Shown here piece by piece: positions 7,478 to 27,047 of a stretch of 64,000 bases of DNA. The notes beneath the pieces were generated by a model. It was not told the DNA's origin. It was given only the letters and a program-made list of their open reading frames with translations, and did no database searches. The DNA is from Limibacillus halophilus. GTDB lineage: Bacteria; Pseudomonadota; Alphaproteobacteria; Kiloniellales; CECT-8803. The stretch lies in contig NZ_JACHXA010000007.1 in NCBI RefSeq assembly GCF_014191775.1, positions 124,001-188,000 of the forward strand, written 5' to 3'. The translations under genes were made by a program, and so were the position numbers. The stretch's first letter is position 1. Every line of letters starts with the position of its first letter.

Positions 7478-7722
7478 CGCGCGGTTCCTGTTCGGTGCCG
7501 CTACAGGGAATCCGGGTAATTCCCGTAACCGGAGCAATGAGCTTAAAACAATTACTCGGGTAGGTAAAATCGGATCGCTCGCAGTTACGGAGAGTCGGGT
7601 GCAGAAGGCGCTCGACTCGGCATGGTCAATCGCTTCACCCTGGACAGCCTGTGCAATGAACTATTTGCTGCAGGATAATGATTGGCTATTCAACGCTCAC
7701 TCGATCAAGGGACACGCTAGCT

Positions 7723-8856: not shown

Positions 8857-8860
8857 CAGT

Positions 8861-9493
8861 CTAATGCTCAGCTAGTTCAACGACCGGGCCGCCGGTCGCC
8901 TGTGCGTCAGCGGCATCGTGAGTTACCAGGAGTGCCGGGAGCCCCGCTTGTCGAAGCCGGGCGAAGACCAGTCGCCGCAAATCATCCCTGAGACTCTGAT
9001 CGAGTTTAGAGAAGGGTTCATCCAAAAGCACAGCGCGTGGTTCCGACAGCAAGACCCTGAGCAACGCTACCCGGGCCTTCTGTCCGCCCGACAGGGTCGC
9101 GGTATCCCGTTGCTCGAATCCCTGCAGTCCGGCTTCGGCAAGGGCGTCACACATGCGCTGCTTGCGGTTGGGAGTTCGACGGTCCATGCCGAACAGAAGG
9201 TTGCCGCCAACCGAAAGATGCGGGAACAGCAAGGGGTCTTGGAACAGCAGTCCGATATGGCGGGCCTCGGCAGGTTTGGACGTGACATCCTCGCCATCGA
9301 GCAAGATGTTTCCCTGTGCCGAGAATATAGGGTCCAAGAAGCCCGCGACATAAGCGAGGAGGGTTGATTTCCCCGATCCGGAAGGGCCCATCACAGTCAG
9401 AACCTCTCCCGGGCCGATCTCTGCGTTCAGCGAGAGCAAAACCTTTTCCTTGAGGCGGATCCGGATATCGTTCAACAGCAGCCGGTGGGCCAT
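8861..9493 (-). CDS. ABC transporter ATP-binding protein (YnjD-like)
   Basis: A 210-residue ATPase subunit of an importer. Walker A is GPSGSGKS at residues 36-43, the signature is TLSGGQKARVALLRVLL, Walker B is AVLLDEPF, and the switch His is in LLVTHDAADA. ATG at 9493 shares one base with the stop codon of the permease gene (TAATG), so the two are translationally coupled; an open frame runs 12 codons further upstream but is less likely. Last gene of a four-gene minus-strand operon. Confidence 0.88.
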   Translation of the reverse strand: MAHRLLLNDIRIRLKEKVLLSLNAEIGPGEVLTVMGPSGSGKSTLLAYVAGFLDPIFSAQGNILLDGEDVTSKPAEARHIGLLFQDPLLFPHLSVGGNLLFGMDRRTPNRKQRMCDALAEAGLQGFEQRDTATLSGGQKARVALLRVLLSEPRAVLLDEPFSKLDQSLRDDLRRLVFARLRQAGLPALLVTHDAADAQATGGPVVELAEH

Positions 9494-11175: not shown

Positions 11176-11215
11176 GACAGCACGAGCCTAAGGCATGGGT
11201 GCGTGCCGGATTTCA

Positions 11216-12436
11216 TTACTGGTCCGTGTAGCGCCGCTGCCACTCAGCCTCCAAATGCTCCATCCAACTTGGGTGCGGTTCCGGAATGATGGCCCCCAAC
11301 TCATCAGGCTTGAGTGATGCGACACCGAGGTCAAGGCGATCGAAAAGAGCGCGCTCGTCGGGATCTAGGCGATCCATGACCAGCACGGTCTCGCCACCCC
11401 AGATAGCGGGGTCCTGCTTGCGTGCCTGCGCTTCTGGGGACAGCAGGAAATTGGCGAGAACCATCGCGCCAGCCTTGTTGCTGGCATTGAAGGGAATGGC
11501 TAGAAAACTCACGTTTCCTATAGTGCCGCCGTCCAAGACGAAGCTGCGAACCGTATCCGGGAACTCGCCGTTGGCAATGGCGGAGGAGGCTTCGGCAGGG
11601 TTGAACGACAGGCTGATGGCGATCTCGCTGTCGGCTAACAGGCGGCGCATCTCTGTGCTGTTCGCCGGAAAGGCGCGGCCTTGCCGCCAGAGTTGGGGGT
11701 GAAGCGTGTCGAGATAGCTCCAGAGTGGCGCGGAGACGACCGCGAAATCGGATTCATCGACTGGCCGGTAGAGAGGGGCTGTGTCGGGCACCAGCTTCAA
11801 CAGCGCTTGCTTGAGGAAAGTCGACCCTAGGAAATTGGGCGGGAGCGGATAGGTGAAACGACCGGGGTTCGCCGTCGCCCACTCCAATAGCGCCGCCAGT
11901 GTTGTCGGGGGCTCGGATACGAATGCTTGGTCATAATAAAAAACGATCTGCGCCTTCCCCCAGGGTGCCTCGTACCCCTCGACAGGCACGGTAAAATCAT
12001 TGCGCACGCCGGGATTGTTGTCGGGGTCGGTCAACGGGAAGTTGGGCAGGGACTCCGCCCAGGGACCGAACAGCAGGCCGTTGCGTTTCATCGACGCGAA
12101 GTTCTCGCCGTTGATCCAGATGAGATCGACGGCCCCGCCCGTCAGGGTTCCGGCGGCTTTCTCCGCGACGACCCGTGACACCGCTTCGGCGGTGTCACCA
12201 AGCTTCACGTGGACAACGTCGACTCCATAACGCTCGGCCACCTGCTTGCCGGCCCAGGCGATGTAATCATTGGTTCGCGGTTCGCCTGCCCAGGCGTTCC
12301 AGTAAACCGTCTGCCCTTTCGCCTCTTCAAGCACGGCCGACCAATTTCCCGGGTCAGGTTCAGCGGCCCGGGGCGATAGAGGAAACTGGAGCGCCAGAAG
12401 GATAAGGACGGCAAAGACTTGCAGGCGTAGGGGCAT
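11216..12436 (-). CDS. ABC transporter substrate-binding protein (YnjB-like)
   Basis: A 406-residue periplasmic binding protein. Residues 1-24 form a signal peptide ending in PRAAE. The sequence WNAWAGEPRTNDYIAW, together with the DLIWINGENFASMKRNGLLFGPWAESLPNF segment split across residues 105-135, is characteristic of the YnjB group within the iron/thiamine/spermidine-type binding proteins. The gene starts 41 bases after the end of the radical SAM gene on the same strand and is followed by the permease. The ligand is unknown. Confidence 0.85.
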   Translation of the reverse strand: MPLRLQVFAVLILLALQFPLSPRAAEPDPGNWSAVLEEAKGQTVYWNAWAGEPRTNDYIAWAGKQVAERYGVDVVHVKLGDTAEAVSRVVAEKAAGTLTGGAVDLIWINGENFASMKRNGLLFGPWAESLPNFPLTDPDNNPGVRNDFTVPVEGYEAPWGKAQIVFYYDQAFVSEPPTTLAALLEWATANPGRFTYPLPPNFLGSTFLKQALLKLVPDTAPLYRPVDESDFAVVSAPLWSYLDTLHPQLWRQGRAFPANSTEMRRLLADSEIAISLSFNPAEASSAIANGEFPDTVRSFVLDGGTIGNVSFLAIPFNASNKAGAMVLANFLLSPEAQARKQDPAIWGGETVLVMDRLDPDERALFDRLDLGVASLKPDELGAIIPEPHPSWMEHLEAEWQRRYTDQ

Positions 12437-12477
12437 CGGAAGCTCTCCTATCGGGGGCGGCTATGGAATACTATCGG

Positions 12478-13563
12478 CTATTTGGCAGTCTCGAGGGAAG
12501 ATCGCCTTTGACGATCGGCTTCCCGCTTGCTTCGGAGTTGCTCCAGAAGCGGCCCCATGACTGTTTCATGGAACCGGTCGCAACCTATGCAGAGATTTGC
12601 GTAGTCGTCGCCCTTGGGCGTCTTGGTGTGACAGGCGGCTTCAAAATCCGCTACGCTCCAGCCCTGCGCCAGACCCATTTTCCCAGGGTCGCCGGCATTG
12701 ATGGCCTCATAGACTGGATGCCCCACCAGAGAATCGAGAATCTCCAGTAACGGTTCCTCGGTCAGGTTGCCCAACGCGCGCCCGGTTTTCATACAACAGG
12801 GGAAGATCTGGCCCGTCGGTTCAATGGCGACTTCCGAGCCTGAGAAACGATGATCCAAGAACCCAAGGCCACCAGACCAGGCGTTGCAAAAATTGTCGGC
12901 CATCGTGGCTTTCGACAGGCCGTTTTTCCAGGCACGGCCACGCGGCCAAAGCTTGCCGATCCAGGCATCCTCGGTTGCCCCGAAGAAGCTGTAAATCGGG
13001 CCTGCTTCATCCGTCCACTTACGTTTGGTGGCGTCGAGTCCGGACGGGTGCATGCCTGCAGCTTTAAATATGGCGGTCACTTTCTCCTGAAGGACTCGTT
13101 TCTTGTCGCCTTCCATGCCGACGTGGAAATCGTCGATGCCAGCAACGGAAATCATCCAGACTCCGCGGGCAAGAAGTTCCGTCACAATGTCCTTTGTCAC
13201 CAGATCGCCAGTCGTCTGGACCACGATCTTGACGCCGCCCCTGTTGGCGTACTTGGCACGTAATCCCTCGATGATGGGATAGAGAACGCGCGTGCGCACG
13301 GGATCGGTAAGCACCTCGCCGCCGGACAGAATGATTCGCCCGACCTTCTCGCGAAATCCGCCGGGCGCGGTCACGTCCGGTTCGTCGCGATCCAGAAAGG
13401 TCATGCGATCCGGCAAGTTGGCGATGATGCGCGGCGCATTTGCCTCGGCCTCGGCGACGACGCCTTCCAAGGCGTCGCGCGCATAGGGATGAAACCGGTC
13501 CTCGTAGCAGTGTTTGCAGCGGCGGTGGCAATGCCAGCAGATCGAATAGTAAATCGATTCCAT
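12478..13563 (-). CDS. radical SAM protein with SPASM-like C-terminus
   Basis: A 361-residue protein. The 4Fe-4S cluster motif C12-x3-C16-x2-C19 sits in CHRRCKHCYED right at the N-terminus. LSGGEVLTDP matches the GGE SAM-binding motif. The C-terminal third has further cysteines (FPCCMKTG, ACHTK, LCIGCDRFH) arranged like an auxiliary-cluster SPASM or twitch domain. Such proteins modify peptides or small molecules, but no precursor peptide is evident nearby. It is the first gene of the operon with the YnjBCD-type importer, which makes a joint substrate or cofactor plausible. The promoter should lie in 13564-13832. Confidence 0.75.
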   Translation of the reverse strand: MESIYYSICWHCHRRCKHCYEDRFHPYARDALEGVVAEAEANAPRIIANLPDRMTFLDRDEPDVTAPGGFREKVGRIILSGGEVLTDPVRTRVLYPIIEGLRAKYANRGGVKIVVQTTGDLVTKDIVTELLARGVWMISVAGIDDFHVGMEGDKKRVLQEKVTAIFKAAGMHPSGLDATKRKWTDEAGPIYSFFGATEDAWIGKLWPRGRAWKNGLSKATMADNFCNAWSGGLGFLDHRFSGSEVAIEPTGQIFPCCMKTGRALGNLTEEPLLEILDSLVGHPVYEAINAGDPGKMGLAQGWSVADFEAACHTKTPKGDDYANLCIGCDRFHETVMGPLLEQLRSKREADRQRRSSLETAK

Positions 13564-13832
13564 GGAAATTCCGTCTCATCAAAAAGCAAGTTAGGCAATC
13601 TATCCGAATCCTTGCGCCAAGGAGAGAGCGGTAACTTCACATCTGCGTTAGACCCGGATATCCGCGGTAGACGGATGACCTGACGTTTGCGGTGGCCGCA
13701 GGTTCTCTCGCGCCACCGGCCGTGTCGTTACATTAGAATTCTGGTATGGGATCGACGGGCAGTCTATGTTGCCGGGCAAATGGGCGACCAGAGGGTTGCT
13801 GTGCACCATCAGTTGTGAGGTTTTCGAATACC

Positions 13833-14528
13833 ATGGACATGTTGAAGATCGTAGCGCCGCCAATTCATTCCGAAGGGTGGAAGTTCATAGGCATCTTTGC
13901 CGCAGTGACGCTTGTTCTGTTCTTGTTTATCGAACCACTTGGTTGGATTGGGGCGGGCGCGACCCTCTGGTGCTACTATTTCTTCCGTGATCCCGAGCGG
14001 GCGACGCCGCTGCGCGAAGGACTCGTGATTTCACCTGCCGACGGCAAGGTTTGCAGTGTCGCCCCGGTAGCGCCGCCTTCGACTCTGGGCCTTGGTGATG
14101 AGCCGCGCGTGCGGGTCTCCATTTTCATGAACGTGTTCAATTGCCATGTGAATCGCTTGCCGATCGCTGGACGTATCACCAAAATCGTTTATACGCCGGG
14201 CAAGTTCTTGAATGCCTCACTCGATAAGGCCAGCGAGGATAACGAGCGCAATGCCCTGGCAGTAGAAATTGACGGCGGCTATGGCGATCTCGGCGTTGTG
14301 CAGATCGCCGGGCTTGTCGCCCGCCGTATCCTCTGCGAAGTGGAGGAAGATCGTCACCTTGAAACTGGAGAACGCTTTGGGATGATCCGTTTTGGCAGCC
14401 GCTTGGATGTCTATTTACCGGTTGGGTCCGCCTCGCTGGTCGCCGTGGGACAAACCGCGGTCGCGGGCGAAACGGTCATTGCCGATCTGACAAGTAAGGA
14501 GGCGCAGCGTGGCGCCAGGATTAGCTGA
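13833..14528 (+). CDS. psd: phosphatidylserine decarboxylase proenzyme
   Basis: Makes phosphatidylethanolamine from phosphatidylserine at the inner membrane. The 231-residue size is that of the short alphaproteobacterial form. An N-terminal membrane anchor spans about residues 17-45, FFRDPER follows, and the self-cleavage site is F187-G188-S189 in MIRFGSRLD, where Ser becomes the pyruvoyl group. ATG at 13833 is chosen over an upstream in-frame start at 13746 because the preceding 29 residues are cysteine-rich and unlike the family. Its stop overlaps the pssA start (TGATG), indicating translational coupling. Confidence 0.92.
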
Positions 14529-15283
14529 TGCCCGAATCCCGCCGCCGTAAGGCTATTCCAATCCGATTCTTGATTCCCAGCCTGATGACGGTGCTGGCGA
14601 TTTGCGCCGGTCTGACCTCCATCCGTTTTGCCATCGACGGGCGGCAGACGATGGCCGTTTATCTCATACTGCTGGCCGCCTTGCTGGACGGCATGGATGG
14701 TCGCGTGGCCCGCTTGTTGAAGGGCACCAGCAAGTTCGGCGCAGAGCTCGACTCCCTCGCCGATTTCGTCAATTTCGGCGTTGCTCCTGGATTGCTGCTC
14801 TACCTAAGCCTTCTTCAGGGGACCGGGCCGCTGGCCTGGTTGTCCGCCTTGATCTTCGTGATCTGCTGCGGCCTGCGCTTGGCGCGCTTCAATGTGATGG
14901 CCCAGGCGACCGACGGGCCAGCCTGGGGAAAAGAGTTCTATGTCGGCGTGCCTGCGCCAGCCGCGGGCTTGTTGGCATTGCTCCCGTTGTTCCTCCATTT
15001 CCTCGGCGTATCGGTAATCGAGGGCGCGCCGGTACTGGCGGCCTTTTATCTCATTTTCGTTGGTTTTCTCGCGGTCAGCCGGATACCGACCTTTGCAGTC
15101 AAGAAGGTCAGCATTCGGCGGGATTTACTGTTCCCGACCCTGTTGGGCATGGCGGCTTTCGTGGCGTTCCTCTTCACCAACGTCTGGCTGGCGATGACCT
15201 TGGGATCGCTTCTCTATCTTGGAAGCTTGCCGCTGTCATTGCGGGCCAAGCGCCGCCGCTTCGGCAAGGGCGAAGACGGCTAA
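14528..15283 (+). CDS. pssA: CDP-diacylglycerol-serine O-phosphatidyltransferase
   Basis: Integral membrane enzyme that makes phosphatidylserine, the substrate of the preceding decarboxylase. The CDP-alcohol phosphatidyltransferase motif DG-x2-AR-x8-G-x3-D-x3-D is complete (D57, G58, A61, R62, G71, D75, D79). About eight hydrophobic segments are visible and the 251-residue length is normal for the membrane-bound type II enzyme. The start overlaps the psd stop by one base. Confidence 0.93.
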   Translation: MPESRRRKAIPIRFLIPSLMTVLAICAGLTSIRFAIDGRQTMAVYLILLAALLDGMDGRVARLLKGTSKFGAELDSLADFVNFGVAPGLLLYLSLLQGTGPLAWLSALIFVICCGLRLARFNVMAQATDGPAWGKEFYVGVPAPAAGLLALLPLFLHFLGVSVIEGAPVLAAFYLIFVGFLAVSRIPTFAVKKVSIRRDLLFPTLLGMAAFVAFLFTNVWLAMTLGSLLYLGSLPLSLRAKRRRFGKGEDG

Positions 15284-15321
15284 GGAATCAACAGATTTGT
15301 GTGAGATTGAGGGGGCGTGCG

Positions 15322-15747
15322 ATGCCTGATCTTTTCTTTTATGGAACGTTGCGCGATGCGCTGGTGCGCGAACGGGTGATCGGTCGGGCCGGTGCACCGC
15401 AGGATCTGAGGAGCGCCACGCTTTCCGGGTATGCCGTGCGCCGGGTGCGTGGCACGGCGTACCCCATGCTGGTAGCAGAGGAGGGAGCCAGGGCCGAGGG
15501 AATTGTTATGATCGGCTTGGTTTATGACGAAATCGCGCGCCTAGACCGGTTTGAAGGTGTGAACTATCGACGCGTGGCCGGCGATGTGATGTTGTGCGAT
15601 GGCTGGTCCTCGGTAGAGTTCTATCTGCCATCCAGACCGCTTCCCCAGGACAAGGACCCTTGGGTCTTCGAGCAGTGGCAGCGTGAGGATCGCGATCGCT
15701 TTTTTCATCGTGATTTCAATCTTGAGGGTGTGAAGCCGCCCGCCTGA
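15322..15747 (+). CDS. gamma-glutamylcyclotransferase-like (AIG2/GGCT) protein
   Basis: A 141-residue protein of the gamma-glutamylcyclotransferase fold, which typically releases 5-oxoproline from gamma-glutamyl compounds. The N-terminal LFFYGTLRD contains the YGTL substrate-binding loop. The segment LVYDEIARLDRFEGVNYRR holds the conserved acidic residue region (Glu in RFEGVNY). ATG at 15322 is preceded by GAGGGGG; the frame is open far upstream across pssA but in the wrong frame for that gene. It lies 38 bases after pssA and may be co-transcribed. The substrate is not assigned. Confidence 0.8.
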   Translation: MPDLFFYGTLRDALVRERVIGRAGAPQDLRSATLSGYAVRRVRGTAYPMLVAEEGARAEGIVMIGLVYDEIARLDRFEGVNYRRVAGDVMLCDGWSSVEFYLPSRPLPQDKDPWVFEQWQREDRDRFFHRDFNLEGVKPPA

Positions 15748-15768
15748 TCAATGCCGATGGTGGCCTGC

Positions 15769-18396
15769 TCAAAGAATTCTGCCGCGCAAGCATTTGTATA
15801 GCTCCATGACGACGACAAGCCCTAGTGCCAGGGGCAGAACTGATACGATCATGTACCAGGTTGGCTGGACGATCCCAAGGGTGCTTCCCAATCCCGGAAT
15901 CCAGGCAGACGCCAAGTGAAGTCCTAGCGCCAGTAGAATAGACGAGATCAAGACGGGGTTGTCACGCAGCGGCAAGCGAAGGATCGAGACCCGTTCCGAG
16001 CGGCTGTTGAGCGCTTGCACGTTCTCGAAAAGCACCATCATCAGCAGGGCCGTGGTTCTTGCCTCCGCGTCACTCCAACCTTGCGCAATGGCTTGTTGGA
16101 AAACGAAGAACGTGGCCACTCCCATGTAAAGTCCCGCCAGCAACACCTGTTCGGCCATACGGCCGTCGAACAGTGCTTCCTCCGGTGGGCGGGGCTTTTG
16201 CTTGAGCACATCCCGATCACTCCGTTCGAAAGCCAGCGCGATATCTTGAATGCCATTGGTTACGAGATTGAGCCACAGCAGTTGGACCGCAAAGAGCGGT
16301 AGGGGCAGGTTCGCGACCAGCGTCAGCAGGAACAAAACGATTTCACCGAAGCCAGTGGCCAGCAGAAGCAGGGTCACGCGACGGACGTTGTTATAGGCAA
16401 TTCGTCCTTCCTCGATCCCATTGACAATGGATGCGAAGTTGTCGTCCGTGATGATGAGGTCGGCGGCTGCGCGGGCCACATCGGTGCCAGCCTGACCCAT
16501 GGCCACACCTACATTCGCAGCGCGCAGGGCGGGCGCGTCATTAACGCCGTCGCCTGTGACCGCGACGAAGTGCCCTGTTTCGCGCAGGGTCTCGACGATC
16601 TGCAGTTTTTGCATCGGCTCAACCCGTGCAAATACCTGCGCGCGAGCGATGAGGGCCGCGGCGCCTTCGCCAGCCTCATGCAGTTCCGTGCCGGTGATAA
16701 CCTGACTTGGGTGCTGGGCAATACCAAGGTCGGAGGCAACGGCCAAGGCGGTTTTCGGGTGGTCGCCGGTGACAAGGCGAACTTCAATCCCAGCTTGCTG
16801 ACATCGCTGGACAGCGAGTGGAGCGTCGGGGCGTAGAGGGTCGCTGATTCCTGCAAATCCCAAGAACTTTAGGTTCTGAGGGGGCTCCCCCTTTTCAAGG
16901 GCCTCTCGCGGGACCTGTCCTTGAGCAACGGCAATTACGCGCAAACCCTCGGCAGCCCAGGAGGCGGCCAACTGAAGCATTTCCTCGGAGCTGTTGGCGC
17001 AAAGGGGTAACACCGTTTCCGCCGCGCCTTTGACGCAAGCCAGATAACCCCCTTTGGCATCGTCGTGGAGAGTGGCTTGAAAGCGCTTTGCGGGTTCATA
17101 GGGAATTTCTGCCAGCCGGGGGTGCTCCAGTGCCATTTTCGCGCGCTCCAGTCCGCTTCTGCGGGCGGCCATTAGAAACGCGCAGTCCACGCTGTCGCCT
17201 ACCGGACCGTTCGGTCCGATCTCTGCATCATTGCAAAGGCAGGCTGCTTCCAAAAGTCGTGCCTTGCCCGGTGATGAGGTGTCGATATCTATTGCCGAGT
17301 CCCAGCTCCCGTCGAGGGGCGAAAACAGTTGCACGACCGTTAGCTTGTTCTGCGTGAGGGTCCCGGTCTTATCGCTTGCGATCAGCGTGCAAGCACCGAG
17401 CCCTTCCACGGCAGGGAGCGAACGCACGATGACATGCCGCGCCACCATGCGGCGGCTGGCAATTGATAGGGCAACGGTGATTGCAATCGGTAAACCTTCG
17501 GGAATGGCTGCGACGGCCAAGGCGACGGCGGTTACGAAGACCTCTTCCAGGGCGGTGCCTCGGCTGTAGGCGGCAAACCCAATTGCCGATACGGCGAGAA
17601 GGCTCAGGATCGATAGGCGCCGGGTAAAATGCCGAACCCGCACGACCAGGGGCGGGTCGCTCAGATCCGGGCTGTGCAGGGATTTTGAAATGCCTCCGAT
17701 AGCCGTCTTGGCCCCGGTCGCTGTGACGAGGCCCACGGCGCGGCCTCGATCGATCGTCGACCCGGCAAAGATCATTCCCCATTGATCCGCCAATCCGCAT
17801 TCAGTCGCAGATTGGTGCTGGGTGTCCTTACTCGTGGGTTCTGATTCCCCGGTTAGCAGAGACTCGTCGGCGGCAAGGATTTGGGCGAACAAAAGACGTA
17901 TATCAGCAGGCACGGCATCGCCGCCTTCAACCTCGACCACGTCCCCGGGAACGAGTTGGCTGGCGGGCTGCCGGATGAGCGTGTGACCGGAATCGCTCGG
18001 TCGCCGCACACGGGCAATTGTTCCCAGATAGTGATCAAGGGCCTCGGCGCTCCGTTCGGCTTTCCATTCCTGAAACGCACCAACGAGGGCGTTGAACAAA
18101 AGGACGGCGCCGATAAACAGTGCGTCCGCAGGCTCTTCGATAAGCAGCGATACCGATGCGGCGGCGATTAGAAGCACGACCAGCGGATTTGCGAACTGGC
18201 GCAGGATGATGGCGACGGGGCCCCGCTTCCGTGGCCTTGGGAGGCTGTTCGGTCCTTCCCGCGCCAGACGCCGCGCGGCCTCCTCCGTTTCCAGCCCTTG
18301 CATCGACGACCGTAGGCGCTCAAGCGCTGCGTCCGGTGTCAAGGACTGGAAGGGTGCCTCGGCCTCGCCGTTGTTTTCGCGTCGCGACGGCGTCAT
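15769..18396 (-). CDS. P-type cation-transporting ATPase (P2-type)
   Basis: An 875-residue membrane pump. The phosphorylated Asp is D342 in SDKTGTLTQNK. Other signatures are ADESLLTGES (actuator domain), the TM4 motif AIPEGLPIAITVALS, the TGDHPKTA segment, and TGDGVNDAPALRAANVGVAMG in the hinge. An N-terminal cation-ATPase domain (residues 14-80) and about ten membrane segments fit the Ca2+/Na+/K+-type P2 class rather than heavy-metal pumps; no CPC motif or metal-binding domain is present. The NGIQD sequence in the TM6 region differs from classical Ca2+ pumps, so the ion is uncertain. Its ATG overlaps the stop of the upstream metallo-beta-lactamase gene by four bases (ATGA). Confidence 0.88.
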   Translation of the reverse strand: MTPSRRENNGEAEAPFQSLTPDAALERLRSSMQGLETEEAARRLAREGPNSLPRPRKRGPVAIILRQFANPLVVLLIAAASVSLLIEEPADALFIGAVLLFNALVGAFQEWKAERSAEALDHYLGTIARVRRPSDSGHTLIRQPASQLVPGDVVEVEGGDAVPADIRLLFAQILAADESLLTGESEPTSKDTQHQSATECGLADQWGMIFAGSTIDRGRAVGLVTATGAKTAIGGISKSLHSPDLSDPPLVVRVRHFTRRLSILSLLAVSAIGFAAYSRGTALEEVFVTAVALAVAAIPEGLPIAITVALSIASRRMVARHVIVRSLPAVEGLGACTLIASDKTGTLTQNKLTVVQLFSPLDGSWDSAIDIDTSSPGKARLLEAACLCNDAEIGPNGPVGDSVDCAFLMAARRSGLERAKMALEHPRLAEIPYEPAKRFQATLHDDAKGGYLACVKGAAETVLPLCANSSEEMLQLAASWAAEGLRVIAVAQGQVPREALEKGEPPQNLKFLGFAGISDPLRPDAPLAVQRCQQAGIEVRLVTGDHPKTALAVASDLGIAQHPSQVITGTELHEAGEGAAALIARAQVFARVEPMQKLQIVETLRETGHFVAVTGDGVNDAPALRAANVGVAMGQAGTDVARAAADLIITDDNFASIVNGIEEGRIAYNNVRRVTLLLLATGFGEIVLFLLTLVANLPLPLFAVQLLWLNLVTNGIQDIALAFERSDRDVLKQKPRPPEEALFDGRMAEQVLLAGLYMGVATFFVFQQAIAQGWSDAEARTTALLMMVLFENVQALNSRSERVSILRLPLRDNPVLISSILLALGLHLASAWIPGLGSTLGIVQPTWYMIVSVLPLALGLVVVMELYKCLRGRIL

Positions 18397-19751
18397 TCCA
18401 AAGTCACCGCATCACGATAATCGGGAACCCGGCAACGCCAACCGAGGGCTTCCTCGATGCTGTGGCGCAAGGCATCGGCGGCGGCAGGCTCGCCGTGCGT
18501 GACAAAAGTTGTGCGAGGCGCGCGTTTGAAGGTCGTCAGCCAAGCCAGAATCTCAAAGTAGTCCGCATGTGCTGAAAGCATGTCGAGCATCTCGACCTTA
18601 GCGCGCAACGGGTAATAGTAACCGTGAATTTTGATTCGGTTTGCCCCCTCGGCCATATCCGCGCCGCGCGTGCCGCCGGCCTGGAAACCGGCGAACAGAA
18701 TGGTGTTCTTCGGATCCGGCGCGAAATGCTTGAGGTGATGGAGCACGCGCCCACCCGTCGCCATGCCGCTGGCTGAAATAATGATGAGCGGCATGCTGGA
18801 GCGGTCCAGTGCTTTTGAGCCTTCGACGTCGCGTACAAAGGTTGCTGCCCGACACGCTGATCGGCTCTCCGCCGCCGTCAGTCGATGTTCATCGTGATGT
18901 GCCAGGAAAAGCTCGCTTGCGTCGATGGCCATGGGGCTATCGAGATAAACCGGCACGTTTGCTATTCGCCCAGTCTGCTTTAGTTGGTGGAGATGATAAA
19001 GCAGCGCCTGTGTCCGCCCGACCGCAAATGAGGGGATCAAAACACTGCCGCCGCCTGACACTGTCTGATTAATGACGTCGGCCAGCTTTTCCTCGACATC
19101 GCCATCTGGATGCCTGCGGTTTCCATAGGTTGATTCCACCACCAGGTAATCGCATTCAAGGCCAACCGTAGGTGGTAACATGACGGGATCGTTTGGACGT
19201 CCAAGGTCGCCGGAAAACAGCAGGCTGCGTTCCTCGGCACGCAGTTCAACCATTGCCGCGCCAAGGATGTGACCTGCGCGCCGTAAGGTAAAGCTGACGC
19301 CGTCCCCGAGTTCCATGGACTCTTCGAAGGAGACCTCTCGGAGGGACTTCAACGCTAGGCGGGCATCCTCTTCTGTGTACAGCGGCAAAGCCGGAGAGTG
19401 CTTCGAGAAACCGTGGCGGTTGGCGAACTCGGCGTCGCGCTCCTGTAAATGGCCGCTATCCGGCAGGAGTATGCCGCAAAGCGCGGCGGTCGCGCGGCTC
19501 GTAAAGACCGGGCCCTTGTAGCCGTCACGTACGAGCAGCGGCAGATACCCCGAATGATCAATGTGGGCGTGCGTCAGGATCACGGCATCTATTGTTGCTG
19601 GGTTAACAGATAGCGGTTCACGGTTCCGCAGGCGCAGGTTTTTGAATCCTTGGAATAGGCCACAGTCTATCAACAGGCGTTTGCCGGCAGCTTCGACCAG
19701 ATACTTTGACCCGGTCACTGTTCCCGCCGCACCGAGAAAGGTTATACGCAT
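18393..19751 (-). CDS. metallo-beta-lactamase fold RNA-processing-type hydrolase (CPSF/Ysh1-like)
   Basis: A 452-residue protein of the beta-CASP RNase family. The zinc site is H61-A-H63-I-D65-H66 in LTHAHIDHSGYLP, and later ligands include His in RRAGHILGAAMVE and Asp in FSGDLG. The beta-CASP part contains ASGMATGGRVLHHLKHF and the C-terminal ADYFEILAWL and THGEP segments typical of the group. Bacterial relatives are annotated as exonucleases of RNA, often from sequence alone. It is translationally coupled to the downstream P-type ATPase, an association that gives no obvious functional clue. Confidence 0.85.
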   Translation of the reverse strand: MRITFLGAAGTVTGSKYLVEAAGKRLLIDCGLFQGFKNLRLRNREPLSVNPATIDAVILTHAHIDHSGYLPLLVRDGYKGPVFTSRATAALCGILLPDSGHLQERDAEFANRHGFSKHSPALPLYTEEDARLALKSLREVSFEESMELGDGVSFTLRRAGHILGAAMVELRAEERSLLFSGDLGRPNDPVMLPPTVGLECDYLVVESTYGNRRHPDGDVEEKLADVINQTVSGGGSVLIPSFAVGRTQALLYHLHQLKQTGRIANVPVYLDSPMAIDASELFLAHHDEHRLTAAESRSACRAATFVRDVEGSKALDRSSMPLIIISASGMATGGRVLHHLKHFAPDPKNTILFAGFQAGGTRGADMAEGANRIKIHGYYYPLRAKVEMLDMLSAHADYFEILAWLTTFKRAPRTTFVTHGEPAAADALRHSIEEALGWRCRVPDYRDAVTLE

Positions 19752-19978
19752 GGTGACTATGATCTCCGTTCCTGGGGTTGAACCGCCACAATCTCAATTG
19801 TCGCTGCATAAACCGATTAGCGGGATGACGTAGATCAATCGGCGGTGTCATTAGCGCCTGAGGCAAGGAACCGTCGGGTGTCGGATTTGTTCTAGTTAGA
19901 GTCGAGAGAGGGCTGATTTCTCAAAGTCGCTGCCCCTAGCATCATACAGAGAGGGCAGCACCAAGGGAGTTCGCCACA

Positions 19979-21523
19979 ATGACTGAAGAGAGCCCGCGCC
20001 GCCGCCGTCGCCAATCGGCGCGTGAGGATTTTGAAGCGCGTGCGCTAAACCAAATTCCCTGGCGCAACATCGAATCGCCGTTTCCGCCGTTATGTCCTCT
20101 GAGCGACGATCAATTGGAAGCGGTGCACGAGGCCTCGCTTCGCTTGCTTGCCGAGCAAGGCGTCGAGGTTATGAGTGTCCGGGCCCGCGACCTGTTTCGC
20201 AAGGCCGGGGCCACGGTCGATGAAGCCTCCGGCGTTGTCTGCCTGGAGCCTGAGCTGATCTTGCAGCTCATCTCGACAGCGCCAAATGAGTTCATGCTAA
20301 CGCCCCGTAATGCCGGTCACGCAATTCGGATTGGTGGAAATGCAATCAATTTTGGGTTGGTTTCTGGCCCGCCCAACGTCCACGACTGCTTGCGTGGCCG
20401 TCGTGCCGGTAATCTCGAAGACTACTGCAGCCTCATCAAGATGGCGCAAAGCTTCAACGTGATTTCCTTCCTGGGCAACCAGGCAACGGCGCCTCAGGAG
20501 TTGCCCGCAAACAACCGTCACCTCGATACCTGTCGGGCCAACATCGTCTATACGGACAAGATCTGGAACTGCGTATCGATCGGTGCGGGGCGCGCACGTG
20601 ATGCCGCCCAGATCATGGCCTTGTCGCGCGGGCTGACGTTGGAGGAAATGGCCGAGAGCCCCGGCGCCATCACCAACATCAATATCAATTCGCCCCGTAA
20701 GCTCGATGAAACCATGGCCGAGGGCGCCATGCAGATGGCCGAATTGGGACAGGCGGTAATTGTCACGCCCTTCACGCTGATGGGGGCGATGACGCCTGTC
20801 ACCATGGCGGCGGCGTTGGTGCAGCAAAATGCGGAAGCCTTGATCGGCATTGCTCTCACCCAGTTGGTCCGCGCCGGTGCGCCAGTGATCTACGGCGGCT
20901 TCACCTCCAACGTGGATATGCGATCAGGCGCCCCCGCTTTTGGCACGCCGGAGAACTGCAAGGCGAATATGGCCGGCGGACAATTAGCAAGACGCTATGG
21001 GCTGCCTTACCGCACGAGTGCCTGCAATGCCTCCAACACGGTCGACGGTCAGGCTGTCTACGAGACGCAGTTCGCCCTTTGGGGTGCCGTCAACGGATAC
21101 GGGAACCTGATCTATCATGCCGCCGGGTGGCTGGAGGGTGGGCTCGTCGCTTCTTTTGAAAAGCTGATCATGGATGTGGAGACGCTGCAGTGCATGGCCA
21201 AGGTTCTGGAGCCGATTGCGGTGTCAGAGGAGGAGTTTGGTCTGGAGGCGATCCGCGAAGTGGGGCCGGGTGGGCATTTCTTTGGATCGTCCCACACGAT
21301 GGAGCGCTATAAGACCGCGTTTTATGAACCGCTCCTCAGTGACTGGCAGAACCACGAGAATTGGGAAATTGCCGGCGCGAAGGATGCCACGGCTCGCGCG
21401 ACGGAAGTTTGGCAAAGGGTGTTGCAGGAATACGAGGCACCGCCAATCGATCCCGCGCGGCTGGAAGCGGTCGATGCCTACATCGCGCGACGCAAGGAGG
21501 CAATCGGAACCGGCGAACCCTGA
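19979..21523 (+). CDS. trimethylamine methyltransferase (MttB) family protein, non-pyrrolysine
   Basis: A 514-residue soluble methyltransferase-like protein. Characteristic features are the LSLLAEQGVEV-like region (LRLLAEQGVEV), the long TIM-barrel core with GNQATAPQELPAN, TNININSPRKLDE and PVIYGGFTSNVDMRSG, and the C-terminal GPGGHFFGSSHTMERY. No in-frame amber codon is present, so it belongs to the large non-pyrrolysine branch that acts on quaternary amines such as glycine betaine. Members normally pass the methyl to a corrinoid protein, none of which is visible here. AAGGGAG lies nine bases from the ATG. First gene of an operon with the flavoprotein and the DddP-like gene; the substrate is inferred to be an onium compound. 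Confidence 0.85.
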   Translation: MTEESPRRRRRQSAREDFEARALNQIPWRNIESPFPPLCPLSDDQLEAVHEASLRLLAEQGVEVMSVRARDLFRKAGATVDEASGVVCLEPELILQLISTAPNEFMLTPRNAGHAIRIGGNAINFGLVSGPPNVHDCLRGRRAGNLEDYCSLIKMAQSFNVISFLGNQATAPQELPANNRHLDTCRANIVYTDKIWNCVSIGAGRARDAAQIMALSRGLTLEEMAESPGAITNININSPRKLDETMAEGAMQMAELGQAVIVTPFTLMGAMTPVTMAAALVQQNAEALIGIALTQLVRAGAPVIYGGFTSNVDMRSGAPAFGTPENCKANMAGGQLARRYGLPYRTSACNASNTVDGQAVYETQFALWGAVNGYGNLIYHAAGWLEGGLVASFEKLIMDVETLQCMAKVLEPIAVSEEEFGLEAIREVGPGGHFFGSSHTMERYKTAFYEPLLSDWQNHENWEIAGAKDATARATEVWQRVLQEYEAPPIDPARLEAVDAYIARRKEAIGTGEP

Positions 21524-21598
21524 AGGGGGCGCTGGCAAAGGCAACATTAACGGCCTCTGGCCACTTGGACACGAGAAGCAAGGAAGAAGGCCCACTCT

Positions 21599-24031
21599 AT
21601 GAAATCCCACGCGCAAGTTGTTGTCATCGGCGGTGGCGTCGTCGGTTGCTCGGTTCTCTATCACCTCGCGAAGTTCGGTATGAAGGACTCGGTGTTGCTG
21701 GAGCGTTCGGAGCTTACCTCCGGGTCGACCTGGCATGCGGCGGGCGGCATGCATACGATCAATGGCGACCCCAACGTCGCCAAGCTGCAGAAATACACCA
21801 TCGAGCTTTACCGGGAGATCGAGGCGCTGTCTGAGCAATCAACGGGCCTGCATATGACGGGCGGCGTGATGCTGGCGGCGACCGAGGCGCGATTTGATTG
21901 GATCAAGGGGCTTGTCGCCAAGGGTCGCTATCTGGGGATCGAAGCCGAGATCATCACGCCGGAAGAAGCGCATCAGGACATGCCCTTGCTCGACCCCAAG
22001 CGTTTTGTCGGGGCCATGCGGACGGTCGTCGACGGCCACCTCGATCCTTCGGGCACGACCCATGCCTACGCCAAGTCGGCACGCAAACTGGGCGCCGAGA
22101 TTCACCGTCATACCAAGGTCGAAGACATCGTACGCCAACCGGACGGGCAATGGCTGGTGGTGACCGACAAGGGCAATATCCTGGCGCAGCACGTGGTCAA
22201 CGCGGGCGGACTTTGGGCGCGCGAGGTTGGGCGCATGGTGGGGTTGGAGCTGCCGGTTTTGGCGATGGAGCACATGTACCTCATCACCGAAGACATGCCC
22301 GAAGTTGCCGAGGTCAACCGCACCACGGGGAAGGAAGTGGTGCACGCTGTGGATTTTGACGGTGAGCTGTACTTGCGCCAGGAACGCGGCGGCATGTTGA
22401 TGGGGACCTATGAGAAAGCCTGTGTCCCCTGGTCCGAGAAGCGAACGCCCTGGGATTTCGGGCATGAACTTCTTGAGCCGGATATCGACCGCATTGCACC
22501 GTCGTTGGAGGTGGGCTTTCAGCATTTCCCGGCCTTCCAGAACGCCGGCATCAAACAGATCATCAATGGCCCCTTTACCTTCGCACCGGATGGCAATCCG
22601 CTTGTCGGCCCGGTTCGCGGCTTGCCGGGCTTTTGGTGCGCCTGCGGCGTCATGGCGGGTTTCTCCCAGGGCGGTGGTGTCGGTCTCGCGCTGGCGAATT
22701 GGATTATCGAAGGTGACCCGGGTTTCGACGTCTGGGCCATGGACGTCGGCCGCTATGGCGATTGGGCAACGCTAAAATACACCAACGCAAAGGTGCGCGA
22801 GAATTACTCGCGCCGCTTTTCCATCAAGTTCCCCAACGAGGAGCTGACCGCCGCGCGGCCGCTCAGAACGACGCCCATCTACGACAAACTAAAGGAATCA
22901 GGCGCTCAGTTTGGTGCTGCCTATGGATTGGAGGTTCCTCTGTGGTTCGCGCCGAAGGGGGTTAAGGACAGCTTTTCATGGCGGCGCTCAAGCGATTTCG
23001 AGCAGGTAGGCAAAGAGGCCAGGGCCGTCCGCAGTTCCGTGGGTTTGAGCGAGATTTCAGGCTTTGCAAAATACAGTGTGACCGGCACGGGCGCGCGCGC
23101 TTGGTTGGACGGTATCCTGGCCTGCCGGATTCCCGATCAGGGACGCATGACCTTGGCGCCAATGCTCAAACACGACGGCAAGCTGATCGGCGATTTCACG
23201 CTCGCCAATCTGGGCGAAGATGCCTTCTTCATCGCGGGATCGGGGATCGCCGAGGAATACCATATGCGCTGGTTCGAAGAGCACCTTCCCGGAGATGGCT
23301 CGGTGACGGTCAAGGCGGAGGGTCTGGGACTCGTCGGTCTGGCGCTGGCGGGGCCGAAGTCCCGAGATTTGCTGGCGCGCCTGGCGGACCACGATTTGTC
23401 GGATCAGGCCTTTCCCTTCATGGCGATTTCCTGGATGGATATCGGCATGGCGCCTGCTTTGGTTGGGAGGGTGAGCTACACCGGCGACCTGGGTTACGAG
23501 ATTTGGTGCCGCCCGGAGTATCAGCGCTACCTCTTCGATGTTCTGATGGATGCAGGTGCGGCGCATAGCATCGCGCTCTTCGGGTCACGTGCGCTCAATG
23601 CTCTTCGCCTCGAAAAGGGCTTTGGAAGCTGGGCGCGTGAGTACCGACCGATCTACGGCCCTTATGAAGCGGGCCTTGGACGGTTCGTGTCCCTGACGAA
23701 GAACGCGGACTTCATTGGCAAGGCGGCGGCAACCAAGGAAAAGCAGCAGGGCGGCAAGCTCCGTCTTTGCAGCTTCATACTTGCAGCCAAGGACGCCGAT
23801 GTGATCGGTGACGAGCCGATCTGGTTCAGAGGTGAAGTGAAAGGTTGGGTGACTTCCGGCGGCTATGCGCACGCTTCCGGAAAATCGGTTGCCATGGGCT
23901 ATGTTCCGAGGGAGATCGCCGGAGAGGCAGAGGGCTGGGAGATCGAACTGCTAGGCGAGAGATTGTCCGCGCGTCTGCTCAGCGAACCCTTGTTCGATCC
24001 CAAGGGCGAAAGAATGCGCGGTGCGATCTGA
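21599..24031 (+). CDS. dimethylglycine/sarcosine dehydrogenase-like flavoprotein fused to a GcvT domain
   Basis: An 810-residue two-part enzyme. The N-terminal half is an FAD-dependent oxidase/dehydrogenase: dinucleotide motif GGGVVG at residues 11-16, E35 at the end of beta-2, and H46 in GSTWHAAGG, the residue that attaches FAD covalently in relatives. From about residue 430 it continues as a GcvT-like tetrahydrofolate domain (GLSEISGFAKYSV, YTGDLGYEIW, RLEKGFGSWAREY). Relatives oxidise N-methyl groups of dimethylglycine or sarcosine and hand formaldehyde to THF as 5,10-methylene-THF. It follows the MttB-like gene by 75 bases and precedes the DddP-like gene by 41. The exact amine is unknown. 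Confidence 0.85.
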   Translation: MKSHAQVVVIGGGVVGCSVLYHLAKFGMKDSVLLERSELTSGSTWHAAGGMHTINGDPNVAKLQKYTIELYREIEALSEQSTGLHMTGGVMLAATEARFDWIKGLVAKGRYLGIEAEIITPEEAHQDMPLLDPKRFVGAMRTVVDGHLDPSGTTHAYAKSARKLGAEIHRHTKVEDIVRQPDGQWLVVTDKGNILAQHVVNAGGLWAREVGRMVGLELPVLAMEHMYLITEDMPEVAEVNRTTGKEVVHAVDFDGELYLRQERGGMLMGTYEKACVPWSEKRTPWDFGHELLEPDIDRIAPSLEVGFQHFPAFQNAGIKQIINGPFTFAPDGNPLVGPVRGLPGFWCACGVMAGFSQGGGVGLALANWIIEGDPGFDVWAMDVGRYGDWATLKYTNAKVRENYSRRFSIKFPNEELTAARPLRTTPIYDKLKESGAQFGAAYGLEVPLWFAPKGVKDSFSWRRSSDFEQVGKEARAVRSSVGLSEISGFAKYSVTGTGARAWLDGILACRIPDQGRMTLAPMLKHDGKLIGDFTLANLGEDAFFIAGSGIAEEYHMRWFEEHLPGDGSVTVKAEGLGLVGLALAGPKSRDLLARLADHDLSDQAFPFMAISWMDIGMAPALVGRVSYTGDLGYEIWCRPEYQRYLFDVLMDAGAAHSIALFGSRALNALRLEKGFGSWAREYRPIYGPYEAGLGRFVSLTKNADFIGKAAATKEKQQGGKLRLCSFILAAKDADVIGDEPIWFRGEVKGWVTSGGYAHASGKSVAMGYVPREIAGEAEGWEIELLGERLSARLLSEPLFDPKGERMRGAI

Positions 24032-24072
24032 GTGCGTTTTTCTGCGACCTGTTTGGAAAGGGAGAGTCGGGG

Positions 24073-25338
24073 ATGAGCATTGATGCAGTAGAGGTTGCCG
24101 GCGGTCATGCGAAAGAGCTTGCGTCGATGGCACGCCAACACGGTGCCATGGAGTATACGCAAGCTCCCGTGGACCTGGATGTGGTGCGTCTTTACCGTCT
24201 GGGTCGCCTGCGAGAGGAGATGCAGAAAGCCGATGTTGCCGGGTTACTCCTCTATGACCAAATCAACACCCGCTACGCGACCGATGCGACGAACATGCAA
24301 ATCTGGTGCTCCCATTATGAAGCGCGCTGCGTTTTCGTGGCACTCGACGGTCCGGTGGTCCTTTTCGACTATGCCAACTTGCCGCATCTGGCCGAGGGTC
24401 TGCCGACGGTGGATGAGTACAGGGTCAACTCCTCGGCCTACTACTTCACCGCCGGCCCCCATGCCGAAGCGCGGGCCAAGAAGATGGGTCAGGATGTTGC
24501 CGAACTCATGCGCCAGTACGGCGGCGGTAGCAAGCGCCTCGCGGTGGATCGATTGTCCCATCTGGGGAGCGACGCGCTGCGGGCCGAAGGTTTGACGCTC
24601 CTGGAAGGCGAGGGGATCGCGGAGCGTGCCCGCGCCGTGAAGTCAACGCAAGAACTGGCGCTCATGCGGGCTTCTATTGCGGTCTGCGAGGAAGGCTGTC
24701 GCGAGATGCGGTCCATCCTTGAGCCCGGCATCACGGAGAACGCACTCTGGGCCAAACTGCACGAAGTAAACATTCGTCTGGGCGGTGAGTGGATCGAAAC
24801 GCGGCTGTTGTCTTCCGGGCCGCGAACCAATCCCTGGTTTCGAGAATGCTCAATGCGTGTCATCGAGCGAGGGGATATGGTCAGCTTCGATACGGACCTC
24901 ATTGGCCCCTATGGCTACTGTGCCGACATATCCCGCGCTTGGCTGTGCGGTGACAGGCCGAACGACGAGCAGCGCCGTCTCTATGCCAAGGCATACGAGC
25001 AGATCGAGCACAACATCGCCGTCCTGAAGCCTGGCATGAGCTTTCGCGAGCTTTCCGAGGCCTGTTGGCGGATCCCCGAGGAGTTCCTCTCGTTGCGTTA
25101 TCCAAGTTTGATCCATGGGGTCGGGCTGGCGGACGAGTACCCCTCCATCAAGCATTGGGAAGATTTCCCGACGAAGGGCTATGACGGCATTATCACGCCG
25201 GGCATGACGCTTTGCGTGGAAAGCTTTATCGGCGTTGCCGGCGGTAGAGAAGGCGTCAAGTTGGAAGAACAGGTGCTGATCACCGAGACCGGCGTCGAAC
25301 GCCTTTCCAGCCTGCCCTACGAGACCGACTGGCTTTAG
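24073..25338 (+). CDS. dddP: DddP-type M24 metalloprotein (candidate DMSP lyase)
   Basis: A 421-residue protein of the M24 creatinase/aminopeptidase fold. The candidate metal ligands are D273, D275, D285, H348, E383 and E398. Their spacing (2, 10, 63, 35, 15) almost equals that remembered for characterised DddP (D295, D297, D307, H371, E406, E421), including the paired Asp in SFDTDL. The segments RYATDATNMQIW, GGEWIETRLLSSGPRTNPWF and VKLEEQVLITETG also match DddP. DddP cleaves DMSP to dimethylsulfide and acrylate. ATG at 24073 is chosen for the purine-rich GGAAAGGGAGAG upstream. The operon suggests the alternative that it is a close relative acting on another onium compound or amide. Confidence 0.75.
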   Translation: MSIDAVEVAGGHAKELASMARQHGAMEYTQAPVDLDVVRLYRLGRLREEMQKADVAGLLLYDQINTRYATDATNMQIWCSHYEARCVFVALDGPVVLFDYANLPHLAEGLPTVDEYRVNSSAYYFTAGPHAEARAKKMGQDVAELMRQYGGGSKRLAVDRLSHLGSDALRAEGLTLLEGEGIAERARAVKSTQELALMRASIAVCEEGCREMRSILEPGITENALWAKLHEVNIRLGGEWIETRLLSSGPRTNPWFRECSMRVIERGDMVSFDTDLIGPYGYCADISRAWLCGDRPNDEQRRLYAKAYEQIEHNIAVLKPGMSFRELSEACWRIPEEFLSLRYPSLIHGVGLADEYPSIKHWEDFPTKGYDGIITPGMTLCVESFIGVAGGREGVKLEEQVLITETGVERLSSLPYETDWL

Positions 25339-27047
25339 TTTGCTTCGGGCGCAGCAAAGGTCAATTTTTCGACCGCGCTTCGGAAATCACTTTCCTCTCG
25401 AACGCCTTGGCGGGCCAGGAGGCCCATGCGATCCAGGACTTCGCGCGGTTGCGGCTGCAGGCCGGTCAGAATGACTTCGGTGTCATGGCGTCGGCACCGG
25501 GCGACAAAACTTTCCAGGGCCTGAGCGCCGGTTGCATCTACCATTGGCACCAGACGCATCCGCAATATGAAGATCTTTGGCGGCGCGCTGATCCGCTCCA
25601 TGACCTCCCCCAAAAGGTCGGCGACACCGAAGAAGAAAGGCCCGCGAATCTGATAGGCCTCCACCCCAGGCGGCAAGGCGGCGCGCATGCCGTCCTTGCC
25701 GTTACCGTTCGCGGCATCGAGTGTGTCTTCCTGGTCTTCCTCGATCAGCAGATCATGGGATTGAATTGCGACCGCACGGGTCATGCGATGCATGAAGAGC
25801 ATTGCCGCAAAGACCACCCCCACCTCGATGGCCACGGTCAGATCGACAGCCACGGTTAAGCCGAAGGTGATGACCAGCACAAGGCGCTCATCCCAGGGAG
25901 CGTGGAGGAGCAGGCGCTTGAAGCGATCGACCTCGCTCATGTTCCAGGCAACGATGAACAGGACGGCGGCGAGGCCGGCCAGGGGAACGAAACTTGCCAA
26001 GGGGGCCAGCAGCAGCATGAATAACAACACAAATAGAGCGTGAAATATGCCCGCAAAGGGTGTCCGGCCGCCGGCGCGAATGTTGGTCGCCGTGCGGGCG
26101 ATCGCGCCGGTCGCGGGAATCCCGCCAAAAGCGACGGACGCGCTGTTGGCAAGGCCTTGAGCAACCAACTCGCAATTTGATCGATGCCGCCGACCGGTCA
26201 TGCCATCGGCAACCACGGCGGACAGCAAGGATTCCACGCCTGCCAGAAAGGCGATGGTGAAGGCGCTGGGCAGCAGTTCCGCCAGGCGTGCAAAATCGAT
26301 CCTGGGCAGACTGGGAGAGGGTAGAGTGCTCGGAATGCCGCCGAACCGAGTGCCGATGGTCTCAACGGGGAGCGTGAACAGCGCCGTGGCGGCAGCCGCC
26401 ACGGTCACGGCGATCAGGAAACCCGGTGCTTGAGGCCGCCAGCGGCGCAGGGCGATGATCAATCCCAAGGAGGCAAGGGCCAGGGCCAGTGTCGTGGGAT
26501 GAATCAGATCGATATGGGTGAGATAGCTTTGCCACTGCGCGGCGAACCCGGCAGGCGGCTGCTCAATGGCCAGCCCGAGGAAGTCTTTGACTTGGCTGGA
26601 AAAGATAATGACCGCGATCCCTGCGGTGAAACCCACGACGACAGGTTGCGGGACGTATTTGATCCAAGTGCCGAAACCGGCAAGCCCCGCCAGCACCAGT
26701 AAGGCGCCGGCCATTAGGGTTGCCAGGACAAGGCCGTCGTAGCCGTACTGCGCGATGATTCCATAGACAACAACGACAAAGGCGCCCGTCGGCCCGCCAA
26801 TCTGAAATCGGCTCCCGCCGAAGGCAGAGATCACGAAACCGGCAATGATAACGGTAATCAAACCCCGCTCCGGCGTCGTGCCGGAGGCGATCGCCAAGGC
26901 CATGGCCAACGGCAGGGCAACGATGGCGACCGTCAGTCCGGCGATACCGTCGGCCTTCAGGTGCGGCCAGCCGTATCCTTCCTTGATGCAAGTTACCAAC
27001 TTCGGAATAAAAAGACGCCACCGGGTCGGCGCAGCATGTTGCGACAT
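25335..27047 (-). CDS. SulP family anion transporter with STAS domain
   Basis: A 570-residue inner membrane protein of the sulfate-permease/SLC26 family, which carries sulfate, bicarbonate, or carboxylates. About twelve membrane segments span residues 30-430, with GGSRFQIGGPTGAFVVV and GIPATGAIARTATNIRAG as family signatures. The cytosolic C-terminus (about 455-560) is a STAS domain (PKIFILRMRLVPMVDATGA). Its stop overlaps that of the convergent DddP-like gene by three bases. The transported anion is not deducible; sulfate release or acrylate handling by the adjacent pathway makes several options possible. Confidence 0.9.
   Translation of the reverse strand: MSQHAAPTRWRLFIPKLVTCIKEGYGWPHLKADGIAGLTVAIVALPLAMALAIASGTTPERGLITVIIAGFVISAFGGSRFQIGGPTGAFVVVVYGIIAQYGYDGLVLATLMAGALLVLAGLAGFGTWIKYVPQPVVVGFTAGIAVIIFSSQVKDFLGLAIEQPPAGFAAQWQSYLTHIDLIHPTTLALALASLGLIIALRRWRPQAPGFLIAVTVAAAATALFTLPVETIGTRFGGIPSTLPSPSLPRIDFARLAELLPSAFTIAFLAGVESLLSAVVADGMTGRRHRSNCELVAQGLANSASVAFGGIPATGAIARTATNIRAGGRTPFAGIFHALFVLLFMLLLAPLASFVPLAGLAAVLFIVAWNMSEVDRFKRLLLHAPWDERLVLVITFGLTVAVDLTVAIEVGVVFAAMLFMHRMTRAVAIQSHDLLIEEDQEDTLDAANGNGKDGMRAALPPGVEAYQIRGPFFFGVADLLGEVMERISAPPKIFILRMRLVPMVDATGAQALESFVARCRRHDTEVILTGLQPQPREVLDRMGLLARQGVREESDFRSAVEKLTFAAPEAN

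Follow-up and report, generated by a model that had tools for sequence, protein, structure and literature searches.

Three adjacent genes in the alphaproteobacterium Limibacillus halophilus encode an MttB-family methyltransferase, a dimethylglycine dehydrogenase (DMGDH)-type enzyme and a DddP-like M24 protein, and the evidence tips modestly toward their forming an operon that breaks down a betaine (a quaternary ammonium acid) distinct from glycine betaine, in which corrinoid-dependent and then flavin/tetrahydrofolate (THF)-dependent demethylation would be combined with cleavage by the DddP-like protein. The genes lie in a stretch of 64,000 nt (contig NZ_JACHXA010000007.1, positions 124,001 to 188,000), hereafter the window, whose own numbering is used below. 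An initial annotation of the window had described three genes running in one direction, separated by 75 and 41 bases, and had assigned them to the MttB, DMGDH-GcvT and DddP families; the open reading frame (ORF) list confirms the layout, all on the + strand, and Pfam matches together with solved relatives confirm the families. The features are as follows.

19979..21523, + strand: MttB-family (PF06253) non-pyrrolysine methyltransferase, 514 aa (ORF, Pfam, PDB relatives, tree)
21524..21598, + strand: 75-base gap with ribosome-binding-like AAGGAAGAAGG ahead of gene 2 (our own reading of the letters)
21599..24031, + strand: DMGDH-type enzyme, flavin adenine dinucleotide (FAD) oxidoreductase and GcvT (THF) domains, 810 aa, WHAAG motif, GFSQGGG signature (ORF, Pfam, PDB alignment, motifs)
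24032..24072, + strand: 41-base gap with GGAAAGGGAGAG ahead of gene 3 (our own reading of the letters)
24073..25338, + strand: DddP-like M24-family binuclear-metal protein, 421 aa (ORF, Pfam, NCBIfam, PDB, residues, tree)

The initial annotation had also suggested looking for the trio in other genomes, and it does recur. The DddP-like protein was searched for in 385 genomes belonging to the window's class, of which 78 contained a match at E values up to 1e-90, and PF06253 proteins were counted in 77 of these (all except the window's own), giving 322 matches in 291 Mb. The 76 DddP-like loci fetched for comparison represent part of the listed matches, mostly the top-scoring ones; L135, L136, L221-L226, the own-genome loci and the gammaproteobacterial loci are excluded from this number, and L184 is included although a frame break divides its DddP-like gene; this locus was omitted from the trees. 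Genes outside the window were picked as longest ORFs, so that overlaps such as that in L147 may be overstated. An MttB gene was found within 8 kb of the DddP-like gene in 13 of the 76 loci versus 1.46 expected, and none of 200,000 simulations reached at least 13 (maximum 9); in eight loci the two genes were within 500 bases of each other. DMGDH genes were present within 8 kb in 15 loci, and both partners in 11. Gene order and orientation vary, with MttB-DddP-DMGDH in L122 and L123, DddP-MttB-DMGDH in L130 and mixed strands in L135/L136 and L145, and the exact order of the window (MttB-DMGDH-DddP) recurs in L221 and L222, two loci fetched with wider flanks from near-complete genomes, where a betaine-homocysteine-methyltransferase (BHMT)-type gene lies downstream. 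Four loci from gammaproteobacterial metagenome-assembled genomes (MAGs; L018, L020, L021, L038) have the order MttB-DMGDH-TauD-DddP, with identities to the window proteins of 64-66, 74 and 71-72%. A search of the phylum yielded matches in 17 of 398 genomes at E values up to 1e-120, the own genome included, and DMGDH was found in the 1.5-kb flanks of 6 of the 16 loci checked. For the TauD-type gene of the gammaproteobacterial clusters, the window genome offers a single homolog (54%), located in a different gene run (L117), and no link is claimed for it.

Genes for demethylation by more than one chemistry adjoin the DddP-like genes. A corrinoid gene lies between the DddP-like and MttB genes in L138, L143 and L147, and its product is 78-80% identical to the MtgC of the window genome; L147 has a DUF1638 gene between MtgC and MttB, and RACo- and BHMT-type genes are near in L138 and L147. 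In L225, genes for a GbcA-like Rieske oxygenase and a GbcB-like reductase stand immediately ahead of the DddP-like gene, with OpuAC/ProV-type transporter genes near, and the order in L224 is GbcB-like, DddP-like, glutathione-independent formaldehyde dehydrogenase, the last scoring above its cut-off. In the DddP-like tree, which like all trees here was of the 'quick' type and supported by Shimodaira-Hasegawa-like approximate likelihood ratio tests (SH-aLRT) only, the L225 protein belongs to the same subclade as those of L138, L143 and L147 (10 rows, SH-aLRT 100), and the L224 protein falls beside it (93). Relatives of the Rieske betaine demethylases (GbcA/GbcB; 3vca, 4qup) hold the position of MttB beside the DddP-like gene in L225 and L224, but their chemistry is O2-dependent, the scores of these genes are under the GbcA and GbcB cut-offs (409 of 670; 350 and 318 of 500), and the window locus has none. 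Weaker GbcA-like matches (27-36% identity) occur near five of the 76 class loci. A BCCT transporter gene is part of the L135 and L136 clusters and also adjoins the DddP-like gene of L223, which belongs to the clade of known DddPs. From these neighborhoods, we infer that DddP-like proteins outside that clade often work with betaine N-demethylation, whichever chemistry performs it.

The DddP-like protein of the window contains Peptidase_M24 and Creatinase_N domains (Pfam); its start was placed at ATG 24073, while the mechanical ORF starts at TTG 23845. It aligns with the DddP structures 4rzy and 4b28 (E values of 5e-102 and 3e-101; 42-43% identity) and retains all six metal ligands as well as Tyr366 and Asp377 (DDDYHDEE), eight residues whose roles are taken from the DddP study (PMC4108388) and which are complete in 83 of 96 aligned rows, window included. 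To this extent it resembles the dimethylsulfoniopropionate (DMSP) lyase DddP, and the earlier description of the third gene as DddP-type holds. It does not hold at the level of the equivalog, where the protein scores 422.4 bits versus a cut-off of 600 (NF043017), nor in the tree, where it lies outside the 15-row known-DddP clade (SH-aLRT 99). That clade, marked by two bacterial DddPs in a tree with no fungal DddP, contains no MttB-linked row, and proteins of the window type further differ from DddP in often adjoining demethylation genes. Fifteen group-specific positions were listed. Judging from sequence, the window protein is probably not a DMSP lyase of the known clade. The MttB-linked label takes 13 changes on the DddP-like tree and 12 on an enlarged tree, and MttB linkage is thus scattered across several DddP-like subclades.

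Two further arrangements of DddP-like genes were observed. The window genome has a second one in L118 (G000 contig C1:127500-147000, at 9255-11603), 52% identical and followed by a 2-oxoglutarate-Fe(II) oxygenase gene, homologs of which occur in the L138, L143, L146 and L147 clusters. In L134 (G145 contig C7), five DddP-like genes are found within ~15 kb around a single MttB gene.

The MttB-family protein of the window covers the entire Pfam MTTB profile (1-500 of 500; 635.8 bits, cut-off 25), and its solved relatives are 4yyc and the glycine betaine methyltransferase 9yce/2qne. Cys349 aligns with the unknown letter X of 7xcl, which we take to be the pyrrolysine position; the ORF has no internal stop, and the score on the trimethylamine methyltransferase equivalog TIGR02369 is 290 bits versus a cut-off of 525. 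In the MttB tree, the protein does not group with characterised MtgB, represented by one sequence only (2qne), or with 4yyc, but belongs to a 49-row clade (SH-aLRT 100) together with 23 of the 25 DddP-linked MttBs and its own-genome paralog L004; two DddP-linked MttBs, from L145 and L153, are on the 4yyc side. Because the tree was filled partly by similarity to the window MttB, the size of this clade says little. The DddP-linked label required 8 changes versus a shuffled mean of 18.9, in a sampling that leans toward window-like MttBs. Three MAG loci that carry neither DMGDH nor DddP (L023 6436-7962, L027 6485-7951, L030 6564-7925) have an MmgE/PrpD-family gene ending within ~15 bases of a window-type MttB, hinting that this MttB clade has another partner.

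The initial annotation had remarked that MttB-family enzymes normally deliver methyl groups to a corrinoid protein and that none was present. This is true of the locus only, as the genome (3.48 Mb, 18 contigs; six PF06253 proteins, one PF02607 match) carries a single PF02607/PF02310 corrinoid gene on contig C2, followed by DUF1638, MTHFR-like, Pterin_bind and RACo-type genes (Pfam). Counterparts of MtgC, MtgD, RamA and the DUF1638 gene are therefore all encoded, and the C2 corrinoid protein presumably serves the window MttB. Its score on the MtgC model NF047996 is 206 bits versus a cut-off of 370, which is not decisive because aerobic MtgC is described as distinct from the anaerobe type in a study on Ruegeria pomeroyi (PMC12478193). 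According to the same study, MtgC and MtgD are required in R. pomeroyi for glycine-betaine demethylation and methionine synthesis, a corrinoid partner acting in trans was genetically shown for glycine betaine, and such genomes carry up to seven PF06253 genes, for which the authors propose additional methylated substrates (PMC12478193). The shared corrinoid core was shown there for aerobic marine bacteria, and that of the window genome is similar. The likeness to the MtgBCD(E) glycine-betaine methyltransferase/split methionine synthase of R. pomeroyi extends to a PF06253 enzyme with one separate corrinoid protein, Pterin_bind, DUF1638 and RamA-like genes, and several PF06253 paralogs per genome; the window MttB differs in lying off the MtgB side of the tree and in being linked to a DddP-like gene, and DddP is not mentioned in that paper (PMC12478193). 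With a single PF02607 match, the window genome shows no separate MetH. Since a corrinoid partner can be encoded in trans, as in R. pomeroyi (PMC12478193), the GcvT domain of the second gene product need not accept the methyl group of MttB. The earlier proposal of an onium-catabolic operon is accordingly borne out in part: a linked and recurring betaine gene set, a one-carbon transfer to THF at the DMGDH-like enzyme and an additional DddP-like step find support, and the missing corrinoid partner does not.

Another MttB and DMGDH gene pair of the same genome starts ~13 kb from the C2 RACo gene and is the likelier glycine-betaine pair. The paralog L004 occurs in a further run (L080, G000 contig C3:28000-47500, at 5947-17561), some 2 kb from histidine-utilisation genes (HutF, HutI, HutG and HutC, all above their cut-offs); the run continues with a DMGDH gene, whose product shares 74% identity with the L135 DMGDH, and a BHMT-type gene, and a histidine-betaine (hercynine) route is possible for this set.

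The second protein of the trio has DAO, FAO_M, GCV_T and GCV_T_C domains (Pfam) and matches mammalian DMGDH 4p9s with an E value of 6e-179 and about 600 bits, its WHAAG aligned with the mammalian WHAAG, the His of which is presumably the FAD-linking residue. Full-length domain plan and WHAAG are those of dimethylglycine dehydrogenase (4p9s, 5l46) and dimethylglycine oxidase (1pj5), while the GFSQGGG signature distinguishes the window protein from mammalian DMGDH and from the own C2 paralog. This signature is common to five linked DMGDHs (window, L018, L122, L135 and L147) and to that of own contig C3, and these proteins are 55-74% identical. Several DMGDH-type paralogs exist in the window genome (six matches shown), of which the C2 protein and two C10 proteins lack the signature and share 35-42% identity with those of the window and C3.

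Ribosome-binding-like purine-rich runs, read by eye, precede all three starts. A scan of 19700-25700 gave a single promoter-like and a single terminator-like site, both on the - strand and not above shuffles, so that co-transcription is neither backed nor refuted by it, and no Rfam family reached threshold in the window. The trio is flanked by a beta-CASP protein gene and a SulP transporter gene, both on the opposite strand, and the unit is therefore confined to the three genes. The beta-CASP metallo-beta-lactamase protein (18393-19751, - strand) reaches 356 bits with the type VII CRISPR Cas14 model (cut-off 800) and is probably a nuclease of the ordinary beta-CASP kind. Downstream of the trio, at a distance of 3.7 kb and on the opposite strand, is a gene of the homocysteine S-methyltransferase family (PF02574; 29002-29931, - strand).

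In the favored model, the MttB-like enzyme would move one N-methyl group to the cobalt of the single MtgC-like protein from contig C2, from which the MtgD-like Pterin_bind protein would hand it to THF, with the RACo/RamA-like protein re-activating the cobalt. The DMGDH-like enzyme, as its domains suggest, would then oxidize the remaining N-methyl group or groups at FAD, the carbon being captured as methylene-THF in the GcvT domain. These transfers follow the established chemistry of the families. The least certain step is that of the DddP-like binuclear-metal enzyme, which may cut the carbon skeleton before or after demethylation, by a DddP-type beta-elimination or by hydrolysis.

Several observations weigh against a dedicated three-gene pathway. 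MttB is absent within 8 kb in 63 of the 76 DddP-like loci, and the 13 linked loci come from 11 genomes and 8 family codes, sister species among them. In the ortholog group of the window's DddP-like protein (about 67-75% identity), 5 of 15 members are linked to MttB/DMGDH, four of the five being close kin, and the other 10 have neither partner in the fetched flanks, some of which end at contig ends. Conversely, 25 of the 29 loci retrieved with the window MttB have neither DMGDH (apart from one weak 81-bit match, L015) nor DddP in the fetched DNA. In G011, MttB and DMGDH are adjacent and the DddP-like gene is on a separate contig. L180 and L187, inside the known-DddP clade, have a 67% identical DMGDH nearby, so that linkage to DMGDH is no special mark of the new clades. 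Finally, no substrate-specific gene was found at the window locus. It follows from these counts that the trio is not obligate. The 10 solitary orthologs would also fit a DddP-like gene that is a chance neighbor of MttB and DMGDH, unrelated to them in function. Such a coincidence is quite unlikely given linkage in 13 of 76 loci versus 1.46 expected and the fact that the trio reappears, with its genes rearranged, in other families as well as in a second class.

An ordinary osmolyte operon would bring together a glycine-betaine methyltransferase, an enzyme demethylating dimethylglycine and a genuine DMSP lyase, adjacent because both osmolytes are algal. All three proteins belong to superfamilies that contain those enzymes, the eight DddP metal and catalytic letters are retained, and an identity to true DddPs of merely 42-43% accompanies a shared fold and shared motifs. 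This reading nevertheless appears unlikely, because the window MttB is outside the side of the tree holding MtgB and 4yyc, a separate MttB-DMGDH pair lies near the MtgC core, and the DddP score (422 of 600) and placement outside the known clade speak against a true DddP. Alternatively, the DddP-like enzyme could act first, as a hydrolase or lyase releasing a small betaine from a larger conjugate for demethylation by MttB and DMGDH. Its M24 relatives include hydrolases (creatinase, ectoine hydrolase, prolidase), DddP-like genes adjoin a first demethylase of corrinoid or Rieske type, peptide-type ATP-binding cassette (ABC) binding proteins are encoded nearby in L138, L143 and L146, and an amidase gene is present in three of the four gammaproteobacterial MAG clusters. 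However, the retained Y366 and D377 fit a DddP-type elimination at least equally well and we know of no such conjugate, so this order of events is also doubtful. A corrinoid-free route, in which MttB would pass its methyl group directly to THF held by the GcvT domain of the neighboring DMGDH-like enzyme, is suggested by the absence of a corrinoid gene from the trio itself. It is highly improbable: the genome encodes an MtgC/MtgD/RACo-like core, related loci hold MtgC between the DddP-like gene and MttB, and the GcvT domain of DMGDH enzymes serves their own formaldehyde.

For the catabolic operon favored here, proline or hydroxyproline betaine was weighed as the substrate, as the aldehyde dehydrogenase (ALDH) of L135 is nearest to alpha-ketoglutaric-semialdehyde dehydrogenase (487 of 770 bits). 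This candidate was dropped. An ALDH adjoining MttB in L070, 56% identical to that of L135, sits with gluconolactonase-type (PF08450) and epimerase genes, a context that resembles sugar catabolism, and the L135 ALDH is thus no guide to the substrate. Next to the DddP-like gene of L130 are genes resembling those for threonine dehydrogenase and its ligase, but they were identified solely by eye and were not used. The initial annotation knew of no characterised pathway with this trio, and a literature search, with most subscription papers outside its reach, likewise found no paper containing MttB, dimethylglycine dehydrogenase and DddP together, nor one joining them among the hits listed by related searches.

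The trio suggests an uncharacterised route of betaine degradation in bacteria that possess the recently described shared-corrinoid system, which would gain another client with a distinct gene partner, and the same gene order in the near-complete genomes of L221 and L222 makes the proposal testable. More broadly, and tentatively, many of the DddP-like M24 proteins that fall outside the clade of known DddPs might be metal-dependent lyases or hydrolases for betaines, not DMSP lyases, that are interchangeably combined with a corrinoid module (MttB/MtgC and DMGDH) or a Rieske module (GbcA/GbcB-like proteins and formaldehyde dehydrogenase). If this is true, loose counts of dddP would overstate the production of dimethyl sulfide (DMS) and conceal an unrecognised betaine pathway; a possible different activity of DddP-like genes beyond that clade matters both for DMS estimates and for what becomes of methylated organic nitrogen.

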